Assembly (NCBI GenBank): GCA_019787685.1
Contig: JAHNUO010000013.1
Span: 1,364,001 to 1,428,000, forward strand
DNA: 64,000 nt
Reading direction: 5' to 3'
DNA from: Chiua virens
Lineage: Eukaryota; Basidiomycota; Agaricomycetes; Boletales; Boletaceae
The stretch's first letter is position 1. Every line of letters begins with the position of its first letter. Both the position numbers and the translations under genes were made by a program. Below, piece after piece: positions 4,793 to 12,620 of the stretch. Under the pieces are notes generated by a model. The model saw nothing but the letters and a program-made list of their open reading frames with translations, ran no database searches and was not told the DNA's origin.

Positions 4793-6260
4793 ATGGCTTC
4801 ATCGCCATCTAATCAACTAACCAACTCTCATCGCCACCCAGTCCCGGAGATTTTGGTGCGTTGTCCATTACGATATTCGGATACAAGCTCACACCACTAT
4901 CCTTGTTTAGACCGACTTGCCAAAGAGGTGGCTTAGCGAAGTCCTTTCCTTGCTGAACGTCAAGTCCGAGGAGATTCAGCGGCGCTTGAACGCGAGCTGC
5001 CTGAGGAGCACAAAAAATTGCAGGACTTGAAGGCAGAGTTCGCCGTTCGACAGTCCTCGGAGCCGACAGGTCCCGTTCTCGCTGCCTGAAAAGCGGAGCA
5101 CGCTCGATAGTCCGAGGAGCGTTGCAAGTGGGAGAATGATTCCTCGGCGTGGCAGACGCAGCGCAAGGCGATGTCCGAGCAAAGGACGAGTCTCCTGGCG
5201 CGTGTCACCGAGTTATCGGACGCAGTTGCACGAAGTGAAGAAGTTCGTATCCAGTTATCGGCATTGGAGGCCAAGCGTGTCGCCTGGATGAAGGAATGCG
5301 ATCCTCTGCTGAATGCCATGATACAACAACCAGAAGAGTGGGCGGTGCTAGCCAACGTCTGCGGGGAGTTGGACGAGGACCGGGTGAAGTTGGAGGCCAA
5401 GAAGACTTCAAGGGTCGAGGAAAAGGCCGGATGGGACAGTGAGCGTGCGGCGCTGCAGGAAAAACAAGAATCCTTGTTACGTTCTCTCGAGGAAGTCCGT
5501 GCATCCGTGGAGTCGCAGAGGTCTACCACGGCTTCTGCTCAGAAGGATAGACTTCTTCCACGAACAATATGCACAAGCATCCGCGTCCGCCAGTTCCATC
5601 CGGGATGAGAACCTAGAGCTGGAGAAGAAGGTGAAAATAGCTGAGGGACAAGCGCATGAAGGTATCGCAACAATCAAGGCATTCTACGAGGTATCTCCTT
5701 TCTTCGATTCAGCGATTTGGATCAATATGTGCTCACTGATATCAAAAGGCTTTGCACGCTGACGTGGCCCGATGGAAAGGGTTGGCGGAGCTCCTCAAGA
5801 AAAAGACGCACGGGCGAATGACGAACTTCATACGTACGTACGAGAGCTACGCAAGTTCCTGAGGTCGTGAATCTTTGCAGCCGTATAACGGCGGAAAACA
5901 AATCCCTCGAAGCTGAGACATGGAAACTTGGCTGGGCAACAACGCAGCGTCGCCCAACGAAACTATTTGTATCGCAGGATCTGCTCCAGAACGAGCAAAT
6001 CTCCTGGGTCCAAGCTCCGTCGGCTCTCAACATCCCACATTTCCAACGAACATTAGCATGCAGCGATGTTGAAGACCTCAACTTTCTTCTCCGTTCAATA
6101 TGTACCCCAACATTTCTCGTTACCTTCCACCGTGGTGGAATCGGTTCTACCGCCACGGAGGTTCACTACCGAACACATCAAGTTTCTTCCCTCGATCTCG
6201 ATCGTTTTGGCTTCCCTTGTTACTTCGTTTCCGCAAGAGACCAAAGAACTGCATGAACCC
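4793..6260 (+). pseudogene. decayed coiled-coil protein gene
   Basis: A heptad-rich, Glu/Lys/Ala-rich protein can be followed through 4900-5530 (for example the stretch around Leu-Glu-Arg-Glu-Leu-Pro-Glu-Glu and Arg-Val-Thr-Glu-Leu-Ser-Asp-Ala). It resumes after a frame change at 5550-5690, and again after an intron at 5750-5830 (Ala-Arg-Trp-Lys-Gly-Leu-Ala-Glu-Leu-Leu). In-frame stops interrupt it near 4935, 5087 and 5112, and at least one frameshift lies near 5540. A first exon may start at 4793. The tail to about 6260 reads as fragments of a Ser/Pro-rich region. The family is not identifiable beyond coiled coil. Confidence 0.5.
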
Positions 6261-6942
6261 TGATGTAGGCGCGGTTGTCGTGCTAAGCATAATGTCGACT
6301 TGTCTCATTTTGTTGCTGCGCTGCGGGCTAGTTTGAACATCGTCGTTGGTCATTTAGTTGGATGAGGCCACCTAGAATACCTTCTCCCAGATCTCAGCTA
6401 ACGCCACAAACTGTAAGTATGCTGGAAGCAACGACAAAGTTCATGCTTTGGTTCATGAGACAAGTATCTTAAATGGGCGGTCATACACCTCTTACGAATC
6501 GCATTACCAATCTTGTGGCACTAGCCGGCCACGAGGAGAGCTACAACGATACAAAATTGCTACAACAACACAAAGGGCGTAGGAGGGGCGGGTAAGCAAA
6601 AAACGGCTGCTATTATAACTGGCGAGACGATGAGAAAAGCGGATAAAGGAGAAAACAGAGTGAACACTTGGTGAGACGATGAGAAGGCCGGAAGGAAAGA
6701 CCAACCCTGTAATCAATCTCGGCAGGCCAGGCGGAAGGAGGTGGTGACCTTGACGAGGGCGAGGCGCAGGAGTTATCTAGCTTGACTGATTAGCTTTGTG
6801 TAAATCGATAACACAAACTCGGAGCAATTCGGGTGGGTTGTTGTGGGTTGTTGACACACACTCAACGAGCAATCGCGGGCTGTCTCTTGCGCTCTCAACA
6901 CCATTCCTATCCATCAAGCCACTCGCTTCAATTCTTACTATC
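6261..6942 (+). other. intergenic and upstream region of the GTPase gene
   Basis: No coding signal. It is purine-rich in 6560-6780 and pyrimidine-rich just before the GTPase start. The frame of the GTPase is open back to about 6796, but the conserved protein begins at the ATG at 6943. Confidence 0.4.
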
Positions 6943-8174
6943 ATGCAGATCGACGATATCAGACAGAAATTTGAACGGTTCCGAATCCTTGTTATCGGCC
7001 GGGCCAACGCTGGCAAGACGACACTTCTCAAGCAAATCTGTAATTCGAAGGAGAATCCAGAGATCTATGACGGAGAAGGGAAAAAGGTATGTGTGTATGC
7101 CAACCTGGGGTTTCTGATCTCACAGGTGCACTTATGGCCTGTGATCAGGTCGATCCGGCACAGATCAAAGAGTCTGCGGAGGTGAATACCAGGTTTACCA
7201 TCAACCCTCGTTGTCACCATCTTACACGTTTCAAGCGGGGAGAACACAATATCGAGAACGAGATGGTATTTCGAAGCAACCCCGGCTTTGTCTTCCATGA
7301 CTCCCGTGGGTTTGAAGCCGGTAGTGTCGACGAGTTTAACAAGATGAAGGACTTTGTCGCCGAGCGAGCTAAGACGACATTCCTCAAGAAGCGTGTCCAC
7401 GCTATATGGTAAACACACAGAGTCACTTACGGCGTGCTAACCACAAATGTTGCATAGGTACTGTATCCCAATGGATCAGATGCACCGTGCGATCTTGACT
7501 GCGGAGGAAATGTTTTTTGATGAATGTGAAACAGGGAATGGTAGGCTTTTCTTAATTATCCATTTATTGTTTTATTTTTATTGTATTTTCGGGACAGTGC
7601 CTGTTGTGGTTGTGTTCACAAAATGTGATGCATTGCAAGTGCTGGCAGTGGCTGCCCTGACAACCAAGGACAAGGAACTACCTGAACAGGAAAGACTTGC
7701 CAAGGTAAAGGAACTTGAGGAAAGCATGCTGCAGAAGAGCACAATTTGGGAAAGATTGCAAAAAAGAAAAAATCCCCCAAAAGTGTATGCTGAAGTCAAA
7801 GGTCTGTATGATATTGGGGTAGGTGACATGGAGGTATCTCATTATGTGATTTTTTTTGCAGATATGCACAAGTTCAATGAAGGATGCAGGATTGTGCTAG
7901 AAAAGACTGCAGCTGCTTTGAATGATGAAAGTTTGGAAATGCTGTTTGTGACCACACAAAGTGCAAACATCATGCTTTGTGTGAAATATGCTGTTGACAG
8001 GTATGTGACCCTTCTTAATGTTAAGGATCTTTTAGTGAATTACACATGATATATCATAGAACTTTGGTGCCCTTCATTGGTAGCAAATTGTCTCCAGTAG
8101 GAAGATTTGATCAGAAAGAGCAAGGGTCCTTGATGAGAAGAATGGGTTCATGGTTCCCACATGTCAATGTATGA
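6943..8174 (+). CDS. G-domain GTPase, basidiomycete P-loop family
   Basis: GTP-binding protein of the family often labelled 'G domain-containing protein' in Agaricomycetes; its cellular role is unknown. Six exons keep frame (6943-7086, 7149-7408, 7458-7540, 7598-7801, 7862-8000, 8060-8174) and encode 314 residues. Motifs seen: P-loop Gly-Arg-Ala-Asn-Ala-Gly-Lys-Thr-Thr at about 19-27, a switch II-like Asp-Ser-Arg-Gly-Phe-Glu in exon 2, and the base-specificity motif Thr-Lys-Cys-Asp at the start of exon 4. The C-terminus Trp-Phe-Pro-His is typical of the family. The intron between exons 4 and 5 uses a GTCTGT donor; a GTGACA donor is the alternative. Exons 1-3 are CG-rich, but exons 4-6 contain no CG at all. 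The last codons (Asn, then GTATGA) can instead be read as a splice donor leading into the repeat array. Confidence 0.82.
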
Positions 8175-11027
8175 AAGTGTGGAATTTCTATATGGATGTG
8201 AAATGCTTACAAATATTGGCAGGTAAGAAATGTGATCAAATTGAGAGATAGAGTGATTTTGATACATGTCCATGTCTGCTCCCACTATGTTCTCTCATTC
8301 ATAGTATGTAAGTGGTTTGACTGTTCTTGGAGGTATCAGAGTGAATCTGATCCATGTCCATGTCTGCTCCCACCATGTTCTCTCATTCATAGCTTGTAAG
8401 TGGTCTGACTGTTCTTGGAGGTCTCAGAGTGAATCTGATCCATGTCCATGTCTGCTCCCACCATGTTCTCTCATTCATAGCTTGTAAGTGGTCTGACTGT
8501 TCTTGGAGGTCTCAGAGTGAATCTGATCCATGTCCATGTCTGCTCCCACCATGTTCTCTCATTCATAGTTTGTAAGTGGTCTGACTGTTCTTGGAGGTCT
8601 CAGAGTGAATCTGATCCATGTCCATGTCTGCTCCCACCATGTTCTCTCATTCATAGGATGTAAGTGGTCTGACAGTTCTTGGAGGTCTCAGAGTGAATCT
8701 GATCCATGTCCATGTCTGCTCCCACCATGTTCTCTCATTCATAGGATGTAAGTGGTCTGACTGTTCTTGGAGGTCTCAGAGTGAATCTGATCCATGTCCA
8801 TGTCTGCTCCCACCATGTTCTCTCATTCATAGGAAGTAAGTGGTCTGACTGTTCTTGGAGGTCTCAGAGTGAATCTGATCCATGTCCATGTCTGCTCCCA
8901 CCATGTTCTCTCATTCATAGTATGTAAGTGGTCTGACTGTTCTTGGAGGTCTCAGAGTGAATCTGATCCATGTCCATGTCTGCTCCCACCATGTTCTCTC
9001 ATTCATAGCTTGTAAGTGGTCTGACTGTTCTTGGAGGTCTCAGAGTGAATCTGATCCATGTCCATGTCTGCTCCCACCATGTTCTCTCATTCATAGCTTG
9101 TAAGTGGTCTGACTGTTCTTGGAGGTCTCAGAGTGAATCTGATCCATGTCCATGTCTGCTCCCACCATGTTCTCTCATTCATAGGATGTAAGTGGTCTGA
9201 CTGTTCTTGGAGGTCTCAGAGTGAATCTGATCCATGTCCATGTCTGCTCCCACCATGTTCTCTCATTCATAGGATGTAAGTGGTCTGACAGTTCTTGGAG
9301 GTCTCAGAGTGAATCTGATCCATGTCCATGTCTGCTCCCACCATGTTCTCTCATTCATAGCATGTGAGTGGTCTGACTGTTCTTGGAGGTCTCAGAGTGA
9401 ATCTGATCCATGTCCATGTCTGCTCCCACCATGTTCTCTCATTCATAGGATGTAAGTGGTCTGACTGTTCTTGGAGGTCTCAGAGTGAATCTGATCCATG
9501 TCCATGTCTGCTCCCACCATGTTCTCTCATTCATAGTTTGTAAGTGGTCTGACTGTTCTTGGAGGTCTCAGAGTGAATCTGATCCATGTCCATGTCTGCT
9601 CCCACCATGTTCTCTCATTCATAGTATGTAAGTGGTCTGACTGTTCTTGGAGGTCTCAGAGTGAATCTGATCCATGTCCATGTCTGCTCCCACCATGTTC
9701 TCTCATTCATAGGATGTAAGTGGTCTGACAGTTCTTGGAGGTCTCAGAGTGAATCTGATCCATGTCCATGTCTGCTCCCACCATGTTCTCTCATTCATAG
9801 CTTGTAAGTGGTCTGACTGTTCTTGGAGGTCTCAGAGTGAATCTGATCCATGTCCATGTCTGCTCCCACCATGTTCTCTCATTCATAGGATGTAAGTGGT
9901 CTGACAGTTCATGGAGGTCTCAGAGTGAATCTGATCCATGTCCATGTCTGCTCCCACCATGTTCTCTCATTCATAGCTTGTAAGTGGTCTGACTGTTCAT
10001 GGAGGTCTCAGAGTGAATCTGATCCATGTCCATGTCTGCTCCCACCATGTTCTCTCATTCATAGTATGTAAGTGGTCTGACTGTTCTTGGAGGTCTCAGA
10101 GTGAATCTGATCCATGTCCATGTCTGCTCCCACCATGTTCTCTCATTCATAGGAAGTAAGTGGTCTGACTGTTCTTGGAGGTCTCAGAGTGAATCTGATC
10201 CATGTCCATGTCTGCTCCCACCATGTTCTCTCATTCATAGTTTGTAAGTAGTCTGACTGTTCCTGGAGGTCTCAGAGTGAATCTGATCCATGTCCATGTC
10301 TGCTCCCACCATGTTCTCTCATTCATAGGAAGTAAGTAGTCTGACTGTTCCTGGAGGTCTCAGAGTGAATCTGATCCATGTCCATGTCTGCTCCCACCAT
10401 GTTCTCTCATTCATAGCTTGTAAGTCTTTGTTACAATTTATTGAATGTATCTTGTTCCCTCTAATATCCCTCAGGATGTAAGACATCTTGAAGCCTTGTA
10501 TGAAATATCACTGAACACTATTTCTGCTCTATCTCCATTTTCTAGAAGGTGAAACCCAATCATTTTCTTTTTTTACTTCATCTTCATCTTTATTTTGCAG
10601 GAGGTTTGTTGTACTATCTCACTTTGACCAAATTAATGATTAATGTAATTTTATATAGTTACTAAACTCTGCACAGGTTTTTTATTTATGAAGTTTCTTA
10701 TATTTGAATTTTGATTCTCACAATGTTTTTACATTAGCACCCAGTTCAATATGGTGCCACAATACACTCAACTCCCTCAACATCAATGGTATGCATGCTA
10801 TTTTCATGCTAGAACATTTCTCATATCACTTTGTATAATTCAGCTCCCATGGACCTTGAAACCATGGAAAAAAGCCCTTTTGTTGGGCATTGGTCAGTCT
10901 TGTTTGGTATGCCATTCCCACCCCTTCAATATCTGTATAGATTCTGCCATCATTATGGTGCACTCCTTCCATCTCCACCAGCAAGGTAATCCAGAATCAG
11001 TTGCAGCAGCTGCCAAATTGTACAAAT
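7591..11027. other. block without any CG dinucleotide
   Basis: Reading base by base, I find no CG from 7591 to 11027, and only one more (11028) before 11377. Flanking DNA on both sides has a CG every few tens of bases. TG and CA are abundant in the block. The pattern fits long-term cytosine methylation and deamination at CG sites. The left edge falls in the third intron of the GTPase gene, so one gene is half CG-rich and half CG-free. Confidence 0.85.
8223..10419 (+). repeat. 88-bp tandem array with single-codon slots between splice-like sites
   Basis: Twenty-four full units of exactly 88 bp (8305-10416), preceded by a diverged partial unit and followed by a 25th slot. Every unit ends in CTCTCATTCATAG, followed by three variable bases and then GTAAGT (GTGAGT once). 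Slot k starts at 8305+88(k-1). Slot contents: 1-6 TAT CTT CTT TTT GAT GAT; 7-12 GAA TAT CTT CTT GAT GAT; 13-18 CAT GAT TTT TAT GAT CTT; 19-24 GAT CTT TAT GAA TTT GAA; 25 CTT. Outside the slot I see only scattered single changes (for example GACTG/GACAG, TTCTTGG/TTCATGG/TTCCTGG) and no indels. The period of 88 is not a multiple of three, but removing each 85-nt intron-like segment leaves whole codons. It directly follows the GTPase frame. Confidence 0.95.
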
Positions 11028-11216
11028 CGTCTGGCACATGTGCCAAAGTTCAACAAGCAGTGACTCTGCTAGCTCATCAACATGATCCCAAAGATGAAGA
11101 GGGGATGACAGTGGCAATAATGGATCTGATTTCAAAGAATCTCATATGTGAGTCACACTTTTGTGCAATTGTACAAGTTGATTAAAAACACTTTAGCTAT
11201 GGATTTCTCTGTGTGA
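10475..11216 (+). CDS. candidate downstream exons spliced to the GTPase through the array
   Basis: Three more three-base exons are flanked by unrelated fungal-length introns: GAT 10475-10477, AAG 10546-10548 and GAG 10601-10603. Longer exons follow at 10659-10676, 10738-10788, 10844-10892, 10941-11147 and 11197-11216, ending in TGA. All have GT...AG borders, and phases agree throughout with phase 0 at the end of the GTPase (Asn codon at 8166-8168). The longest exon encodes an Ala/Gln-rich helical segment (Val-Ala-Ala-Ala-Ala-Lys-Leu-Tyr). No family is recognised. If transcribed with the GTPase, the full protein would be about 455 residues. It could instead be a separate small gene or chance. 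Confidence 0.4.
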
Positions 11217-11510
11217 AAAGTTCAGTATCTTCAATGATGTCTCAATGGTGCAGAATATTTTGGTAGAATGGAAACTGGTTGTAAATGTGAATTGTGTAAC
11301 ATTGTGTTTTTTTGACACAGTTGTGGTGATTGATTCAGAGCATGACCATTGCTCAACCCTTCACATAGTGTCACTGACGCACCAATGAAAAACACATCTC
11401 AAAAACATTGATACACTATAAACCAATGCCGCATCACACAAAACCTGTATACACCATCGAAATCCTCATCAACACCGGTCAGAACAGAAACACAAATCGA
11501 CTCGGAAACT
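11217..11510. other. intergenic
   Basis: AT-rich to 11377, then an abrupt return to CG-containing sequence. No gene seen. Confidence 0.4.
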
Positions 11511-11519
11511 TGACTCGCT

Positions 11520-12620
11520 TCATGTCCATGCCCCTCCACGCCACGCTCGATGCACATTGACCCTCTCCCTGTGCACCACCCTGACTGGTATACTGCCCAA
11601 TGGCGGTGGGGTCCCCGAGGTGTTGTCGATCCAGCGCTCAAGGGGTGCTGTCGTGCTGGTCGTCCAAGAAGACGACGCTAAGGGCCCAATACTCCGAGTC
11701 GTCACCACCCTCCGAAATCCAGATTCAGTCCCATTCTGCGTCGCCAACGTGATGCTGCTCCCCGTACCCGCAGCCCCACTCATAGTTCGAGTTCATACAC
11801 ACCATCGATCCCGCGGTGGCATTCCCAGACACAATCACGAAATCGGCCGAATAAATTACCGTATCGACCGGCTTGTTCGTCGTAAACCGAAGCGTGGTGT
11901 GCGCAGAGTCAGCGAGGGAATCAGAGCGGGAGAAAACGAACACGACATCCACCGTCCGTGCCACCCAACAACCATCCCATGTTTCAACGATCAAGATACG
12001 AGACCCAATCGACGAGCTCATCACGCGCCGTGTTCGCTCGAACAACCATCGACTCGGCGTCGTCCACCCGAACCAGTCCGCAAGGCTAAATGCAATCCCA
12101 AGAACAGCGATCCGGCAGCGACCAGGGCGCGCGCACGCTTCCACCCGCGACCGCCCACAGAAGCCACGTGCACGCACATCGGAGGTAGGAAATGGAGGCA
12201 CCTACTCCTTTGCCTCCGCCCCGCTAGGACCGTCACCGTCACCGAACGCGTCTTCGCCGTGGGATCCACAGCCGCGGCCAGTTGCGTAAGGTATGTCTGT
12301 TCGCGCCGTCATCAAACACCATCAGCATTACATCACCCTCGCCCGACAACGGCTCAGGTCCGCGCACCAAAATGACACGTCCAAGACGCCCATCTCGCGC
12401 AGCGTGGGGTACTTCCAGTCTTAGATCCAGCTCACCAGCTTGGGTCGGGCGTGTGGAACAAGGGGATGAGTGGTTGTTATCGTTCTGTTCGATATCACGT
12501 TGGTTTCTGGAATGAACAGAAAGACGAGACAGACCCCTGCAATCAGAAAGGAGACGGCGACGATCAATGCGCAATAGTGATGAAATTTACGACGCGTCCG
12601 ATCACGTGTATAAAAAAATC
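11520..12620 (-). pseudogene. decayed membrane-anchored protein gene
   Basis: Read on the minus strand, a clear transmembrane segment (Ala-Leu-Ile-Val-Ala-Val-Ser-Phe-Leu-Ile-Ala-Gly) near 12,560 is followed by a luminal-type region with Pro-Leu-Val-Pro-His, Pro-Thr-Leu-Arg-Glu-Met-Gly-Val and Val-Asp-Pro-Thr-Ala-Lys-Thr segments in changing frames. A second open block (11,725-12,201) continues to a Cys-containing region near 11,780. At least two frame changes and a stop after Ser-Trp-Ile break it. The family is uncertain: single-pass fungal membrane protein of unknown function. Confidence 0.35.

Follow-up and report, generated by a model that had tools for sequence, protein, structure and literature searches.

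Arrays of one-codon exons are an already known kind of structure in fungi, from Tuber, and the microexons of the Tuber nank genes are reportedly credited to Iotti et al. 2012 by papers that cite that work. In the available passages of such papers, the NACHT-ANK/NLR genes of Tuber melanosporum are said to diversify by splicing 'tens of' or 'multiple' 3-bp, codon-sized microexons alternatively (PMC3689799, PMC4986451, PMC10197012). In Podospora anserina, as far as the accessible text describes them, the repeats of the HNWD/NWD allorecognition genes are exchanged within and between family members, with diversifying selection on four residues of each repeat (PMC1805685), and are spontaneously duplicated and deleted (PMC2873952). 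Here we describe a locus of the basidiomycete Chiua virens, in a window of 64,000 nucleotides (assembly GCA_019787685.1, contig JAHNUO010000013.1, positions 1,364,001 to 1,428,000 of the forward strand; contig C13 in a 48.3-Mb genome of 136 contigs), in which 25 three-nucleotide slots alternate with near-identical introns in the middle of a GTPase gene. This array is probably a run of real, translated one-codon exons, which would be reshuffled by unequal exchange with breakpoints in the introns and whose codons would be under diversifying selection.

The closest documented logic is, by analogy, that of HNWD. In the available text on those genes, the units are likewise homogenised within and between loci and a few codons per repeat are hypervariable, whereas the constant part is a WD40 protein repeat; here it is an intron, so that of each unit nothing but the variable residue would be translated. 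The Pfam matches of the window GTPase do not show the NACHT-WD40 architecture. The Tuber nank genes, as the sources describe them, resemble the present locus in that an enlarged fungal gene family with an NTPase domain carries codon-sized exons by the tens, and these exons are said to diversify the protein; unlike it, they are NACHT-ANK genes of an ascomycete with reported alternative splicing, while the present gene is an MMR_HSR1-like GTPase of an agaricomycete with exons from gene models. The genome also gave 37 matches to DUF6534, a family typical of agaricomycetes. Schistosome micro-exon genes (MEG) also string together very short exons, most with a length divisible by three, but in the accessible part of the source these are mostly 15 bp long with introns of 0.1-5 kb (PMC10526429), compared with slots of 3 nt and introns of 58-96 nt here. 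Among the titles and abstracts listed from the open-licence literature, none on one-codon exon arrays in GTPases or basidiomycetes was found.

The repeat occupies positions 8250-10425 of the window with a period of 88, 24.7 copies and a 97% match (Tandem Repeats Finder). A motif scan placed 25 slots of 3 nt in the array, at 8305-8307 and then one per 88 bp up to 10417-10419, all bounded by CTCTCATTCATAG and GTAAGT or GTGAGT:

8305..10419, + strand: predicted array of 25 one-codon exons, at 8305+88k with k from 0 to 24, separated by 24 introns of 85 nt

The slots take six values (TAT, CTT, TTT, GAT, GAA and CAT) and read in order Y L L F D D E Y L L D D H D F Y D L D L Y E F E L. A first-pass annotation of the window had described about 25 single-codon slots between near-invariant 85-nt introns, which these figures bear out; as a correction to it, one-codon exons go on past 10420, at 10475, 10546 and 10601. 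Without splicing, the array contains 40-42 stops per forward frame, and an unspliced repeat protein was rejected on this count. A single unit was not more stable as RNA structure than its shuffles (z = 0.96), and Rfam gave nothing at gathering scores over 6000-12500.

The slots appear to act as codons, judging by their fixed length, their depletion in stops, the conserved frame downstream and their faster variation. In the whole genome, the acceptor-3 nt-donor pattern CATTCATAG-N3-GTRAGTG occurs 1,296 times, and the count stays at 1,296 when the slot is allowed 0-14 nt (reversed control 1). Across 28 loci, slot length is 3 nt in 674 of 674 cases and introns are 58-96 nt long; two further matches, of 0 and 7 nt, were on inspection not array units. 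In four arrays fetched later and kept outside the 674 slots (L060-L062 and L064), 137 of 137 slots are 3 nt and none is a stop, and three other motif pairings in them are not slots (two at the L064 GTPase exon end, one a second donor in L061). Only 3 of the 674 slots are stops (TAA 1, TGA 2, TAG 0), while 62.0 (sd 5.1) were expected with bases shuffled between slots within one array, and 0 of 5,000 shuffles were as low. Because units within one array are related, counting each codon once per array is fairer, and this gave 3 stops in 193 against 16.5 expected (0 of 5,000 shuffles as low). The ratio of TAA/TAG to TAT/TAC slots is 1:93, while the same contrast with other first bases is 132:51 (P-value = 8e-35). 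Similarly, TGA against other TGN slots is 2:21, the commonest TGN slot being TGG (Trp), while xGA against the rest with other first bases is 152:9 (P-value = 1.5e-18). Genome-wide, TAA and TGA together account for 5 of the 1,296 slots.

Variation is concentrated in the slots. Per-site diversity in the window array is 0.452 for the slot and 0.0105 for the intron (23 mode-length units). In 25 arrays, slot diversity is 0.447-0.673 and intron diversity 0.0008-0.25, with a ratio of 1.9-686 (median 28), and the two are uncorrelated (Spearman -0.12, P-value = 0.56); this test needed at least six mode-length units and omitted off-mode units, which kept 25 of 28 loci (L009, L011 and L016 out), and an earlier one that included the window array kept 19 of 22 loci under the same six-unit rule. 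In L033, the 32 introns differ by one base in one unit, and the slots take six values (slot 0.517 vs intron 0.0008). The pairs L020/L026 and L013/L014 have flanks 98% identical, yet at most two consecutive slots in common. Within seven older arrays, diversity is 0-0.093 in the donor hexamer, 0-0.108 in the last three intron bases and 0.050-0.275 in the intron middle, so that splice-site bases are less diverse than the intron middle in each of the seven, as expected if splice sites are kept. Eight 88-bp arrays on different contigs have consensus introns that differ at 0-1 of 85 bases, while flank differences among seven of these arrays (all but L023) come to about 1.5-11%. We infer that slot diversity is driven by selection rather than by local mutation.

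Two pairs of GTPase loci, L060/L032 and L061/L062 (contigs C27 and C24), lie at similar spacing. Their upstream flanks are 97.5% and 93.3% identical and their slot strings very different, and the pairs could be haplotypes or a segmental duplication.

The one-codon exons might be real and the segment a tolerant disordered linker, with slots weakly constrained or locally mutating and not selected for recognition, which we consider rather unlikely. Array length does swing widely among paralogs (3-41 slots per locus in gene models of the 28 loci, median 24.5; 5-41 without the fragment L016; 46 in L061 and in L062), and Pfam found no family above cut-off in the C-terminal part of the protein. Additionally, the third slot base is A or T in 647 of 674 slots and C in 1, a constraint unrelated to the choice of peptide, and most amino acids have one preferred codon. 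The third bases of the coding sequence before the window array are fairly even (86 G, 73 A, 72 T and 64 C). The A/T preference may come from avoiding CpG at an NNC/G junction and AG/GT at NAG slots. Against the linker, slot diversity is, at the median, 28 times the presumably near-neutral diversity of introns, and even arrays with near-identical introns have saturated slots; relaxed constraint by itself cannot outrun the neutral rate, though local hypermutation could. Amino-acid use is also skewed, with Gly, Leu, Tyr and Glu in 375 of 674 slots, Met in 0 and Ser, Thr, Lys and Asn together in 16; A-first codons are rare (41 of 674).

The array appears, from the exon models and family alignments, to sit inside the coding region and not in a 3' untranslated region (UTR), as a fixed D-x-E trio, an 18-nt exon and a C-terminal region follow it in phase 0. 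The first-pass annotation had taken the variable residues for a peptide tail, and this did not hold: the segment is internal and conserved coding exons follow. Its statement that the last GTPase exon ends in phase 0 was right, since the coding sequence before the array has 885 nt, or 295 codons, to Asn at 8168. The parts of the gene model around the array are as follows:

6943..8168, + strand: GTPase part, seven exons and 295 codons in the exon model, ending in phase 0
6943-7086, 7149-7181, 7236-7408, 7458-7540, 7598-7801, 7862-8000 and 8060-8168, + strand: the seven GTPase exons of the exon model
8169..8304, + strand: intron before the first slot, holding AG/GT at 8222/8223
10475..10477, + strand: fixed one-codon exon GAT (Asp), GAT in 22 of 22 matched loci, 28 tried
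10546..10548, + strand: one-codon exon AAG (Lys), with Gln, Glu or His in paralogs
10601..10603, + strand: fixed one-codon exon GAG (Glu), GAG in 21 of 22 matched loci and CAG in 1 (Gln in L036)
10659..10676, + strand: 18-nt exon LLNSAQ, a model of this length matched in 22 of 28 loci
10738..10788, + strand: 51-nt exon HPVQYGATIHSTPSTSM
10844..10892, + strand: exon LPWTLKPWKKALLLGI-G with donor GTCAGT, its end placed by eye from the family alignment
10941..11147, + strand: conserved C-terminal exon DSAIIMVHSFHLHQQGNPESVAAAAKLYKSSGT..., with donor GTGAGT at its end, ends placed by eye
11197..11216, + strand: tentative last exon with stop TGA at 11214-11216, placed by eye by analogy with the other subfamily, weak

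The spliced translation matches Pfam MMR_HSR1 (E = 6.5e-06, 26.7 bits, cut-off 21.9) and holds the G motifs G1 GRANAGKT, G3 DSRG and G4 TKCD. Neither NACHT nor ANK was among the Pfam families listed, NB-ARC appeared at the P-loop alone and below cut-off, and a PDB sequence search gave weak matches near the P-loop only (best E = 0.0023). Among eight subfamily members, differences per site before the array are 0.118 at third codon positions, 0.048 at first, 0.048 at second and 0.136 in introns, and gap cells number 0 in exons and 358 in introns. The AG/GT at 8222/8223, a zero-length exon or a recursive splice site, has an equivalent in 9 of 10 subfamily members, the printed stretch of the tenth (L027) beginning too late to show the site; we take this juxtaposition to be reminiscent of stwintrons.

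After the array, the trio and the 18-nt exon were matched in 22 of 28 loci by a model that had preset exon lengths and allowed GAT or GAC at 10475 and GAG or CAG at 10601. Four of the six misses (L030, L031, L032 and L035) have fetched stretches that end at most 130 nt past the last unit, and the other two (L017 and L023) have unrelated sequence after the array. Farther down, where several exon ends past 10788 were placed by eye, the C-terminal exon is found in the same reading and with 44.8-48.1% identity in L010, L013, L018, L019 and L036 of other subfamilies; the sixth locus compared, L033, gave no match, and its sequence ends early. The nearer paralog L012 has a 68% C-terminal match over a stretch that includes an intron. 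The motif PW...AL.LGI in the 10844..10892 exon is common to the other subfamily in the alignments. For a 150-nt piece of the C-terminal exon in 20 loci, including L009 and L011, which both read into stops there, pairwise differences are 0.37, 0.23 and 0.39 at positions 1, 2 and 3. The shorter post-array exons of seven sequences have 0 gap cells, and their introns 154.

Introns of this length are, in fungi, spliced by intron definition, in which the intron itself is the unit recognised. Each 88-bp unit would be a cassette of one codon and one short intron, and splicing intron by intron, in order, would join the 25 codons, then D-K-E, the 18-nt exon and the C-terminal region, giving a product of about 437 residues if all slots are included and the tentative last exon is correct. 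With intron n removed first, its codon would end the upstream exon and the next donor would be used; exon definition of 3 nt would therefore be unneeded. The codon would be free to vary because the donor signal GTAAGT lies within the intron. The slot exons are presumably used in RNA. The slots could instead be mostly skipped, with 8168 joined to 10475 or 10738 and the array serving as a splicing-controlled insert or a regulatory intron. The near-identical donors and acceptors permit any pairing, and any skip of 3-nt slots after a phase-0 exon stays in frame, but the strong depletion in stops implies that slots are often translated and introns of 58-96 nt generally favour pairing of neighbours by intron definition, so we regard general skipping as improbable.

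The array is one of many in the genome. A protein search with the window GTPase gave 282 matches in the same genome, which among the matches listed fall in at least 71 distinct places including the window, some of which may be haplotype copies. The sequence CTCTCATTCATAGNNNGTRAGT occurs 632 times (reversed control 0), a count that misses more distant paralogs because those use CTGCCATTCATAG, and CATTCATAGNNNGTRAGTG occurs 1,296 times (reversed control 0). When loci were picked by GTPase homology alone, 15 of 17 carried arrays (11 of 12 in the set L024-L028 and L030-L036, 4 of 5 in L060-L064). Conversely, 16 of 16 array loci on contigs C1-C8 among the matches listed belong to the GTPase family, 15 by protein search and that at 84 kb of C4 by its last pre-array exon and by L064. 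Among prokaryote genomes, 14 stretches each contain the close pattern CATTCATAGNNNGTAAGTG once, and viral genomes gave 9 stretches with a single match apiece, all taken as chance.

A burst of introner-like elements, that is, of a mobile intron inserted repeatedly, is very improbable. Introner-like elements are described in the available text as highly similar spliceosomal introns in many copies (PMC4457414, PMC8469720, PMC9860276), and near-identical introns do occur in many genes here; however, these introns are tandem and confined to one gene family among the matches listed, and duplication has copied blocks of several units, variants included. Least credible of all is a non-coding minisatellite, 3' UTR or intergenic, the conservative choice of the first-pass annotation, for which the tandem near-identical repeat and the TGA that the unspliced GTPase frame meets at 8172 would speak, and which fails on the stop depletion, the fixed slot length, the conserved exons downstream and the concentration of variation in the slots.

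How the arrays change can be seen in a near-identical pair of gene copies, L018 and L064. Of the 20 introns of L064, 19 are exact in L018 and one is off by one base, and L064 has three extra units with the slots GTT-TTT-TTT, whose introns equal introns 3-5 of L018. The two arrays differ by an exact duplication of three units. Together with multi-unit block duplications with private variants in L020, L021 and L032, this agrees with the exchange of units between repeats that had been proposed from the window.

L064 lies on C34; on C4, its 5' part has a counterpart near 135.6 kb (98.9% identical) and its 3' part one near 84 kb. Because these two sites on C4 lie apart, C34 probably represents the second haplotype of C4 in rearranged form, or alternatively L064 is a second locus. 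On C4, the gene seems to be divided, with the 5' part (L063, C4:135500-141000) on one strand and the array with the 3' part (L018, C4:80500-89500) on the other, while they stand together on C34 (L064, C34:214400-219900). This difference is perhaps an inter-haplotype rearrangement, possibly an inversion.

Neighbouring units were also compared, with arrays split into young and old by intron diversity (L009, L011, L016 and L036 left out). For the 14 young arrays, intron variants shared by neighbours number 37, with 24.5 expected (a level reached in 2 of 1,000 shuffles), and shared slots 65, with 63.3 expected (428 of 1,000). This agrees with selection acting after copying, or with conversion biased towards introns. 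The 10 old arrays show a slight excess in both tests (70 vs 58.8, 57 of 1,000 shuffles; 51 vs 40.4, 37 of 1,000). Mutual association of intron variants is low, with 29 of 1,025 pairs at P-value < 0.05 in 11 arrays. These patterns fit frequent exchange in which new codons are favoured by selection; alternatives are local hypermutation and conversion biased towards introns.

Under exchange with selection, unequal exchange or conversion with breakpoints in introns would add, remove or reorder whole residues, and would leave the frame intact because all sequence between the codons is intron. Selection for novelty would maintain diversity among the codons, and recombination would even out the introns inside each locus and across loci. 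More tentatively, that slots are nearly independent of intron copying would mean that introns become uniform with the codon between them left uncopied, for example by conversion tracts ending at or near the splice sites.

In several loci the array is interrupted. L017 and L016 (C3:641500-659000) look like one array split by an insert of about 7 kb whose two ends resemble each other and look LTR-like by eye; on the far side the array resumes with three units, which the fixed trio and the C-terminal exons follow. L017 and L016 were counted as two loci, though probably halves of one array. In L023 (C5:450600-458200), a further unit stands about 5 kb on at C5:450773, which suggests an insertion. 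L011 (C1:3493500-3502500) is likely decayed, with five slots, a TAG in the 18-nt exon and a later exon 4 nt shorter.

Several observations weigh against translated, selected one-codon exons. Stops do exist in slots (TGA in L013 and L022, TAA in L019), and some members look damaged, L011 by a stop and a frameshift and L017 and L023 by interruption. Two of the 17 homology-picked loci are without an array, L034 and L063, the latter consisting of the 5' part only. One pattern of the window subfamily gave 0 matches to a spliced-looking retrocopy in the genome. The short post-array exons lack a third-position excess, with differences of 0.074, 0.057 and 0.053 at the three positions vs 0.079 in introns (the same seven sequences, tested with an earlier exon end of 10906 instead of 10892); with L012 added, the values are 0.098, 0.081 and 0.100 vs 0.104, and gap cells 189 in exons vs 1,600 in introns. 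The association of slots with intron variants is weak (15 of 212 tests with P-value < 0.05), and cassette copying is therefore clear only in some young arrays.

For the function, we infer that these GTPases form a family for non-self recognition or allorecognition, with the variable peptide as a recognition surface; composition, gene-family size and turnover resemble those of recognition segments. Tentatively, the whole may be a fungal recognition repertoire with one amino acid per exon, spread over dozens of GTPase loci, with cassettes reshuffled by intron recombination and possibly by splicing, a reading we hold possible but short of probable.

The codon-level evidence turns the remark made on the truffle genes into a quantitative one, with codon constraint and slot hypervariability measured, and extends the design to another protein family and probably to another phylum than that of Tuber. 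It also offers more than 1,000 natural candidate one-codon exons for asking how a spliceosome copes with exons below the size needed for exon definition. The arrangement suggests that introns may serve as frame-proof padding, in which recombination is safe and yields in-frame peptides in every case. Should the segment bind something, the family would be a large unexplored fungal recognition repertoire, and if that reading is true, one genome could offer very many peptides.

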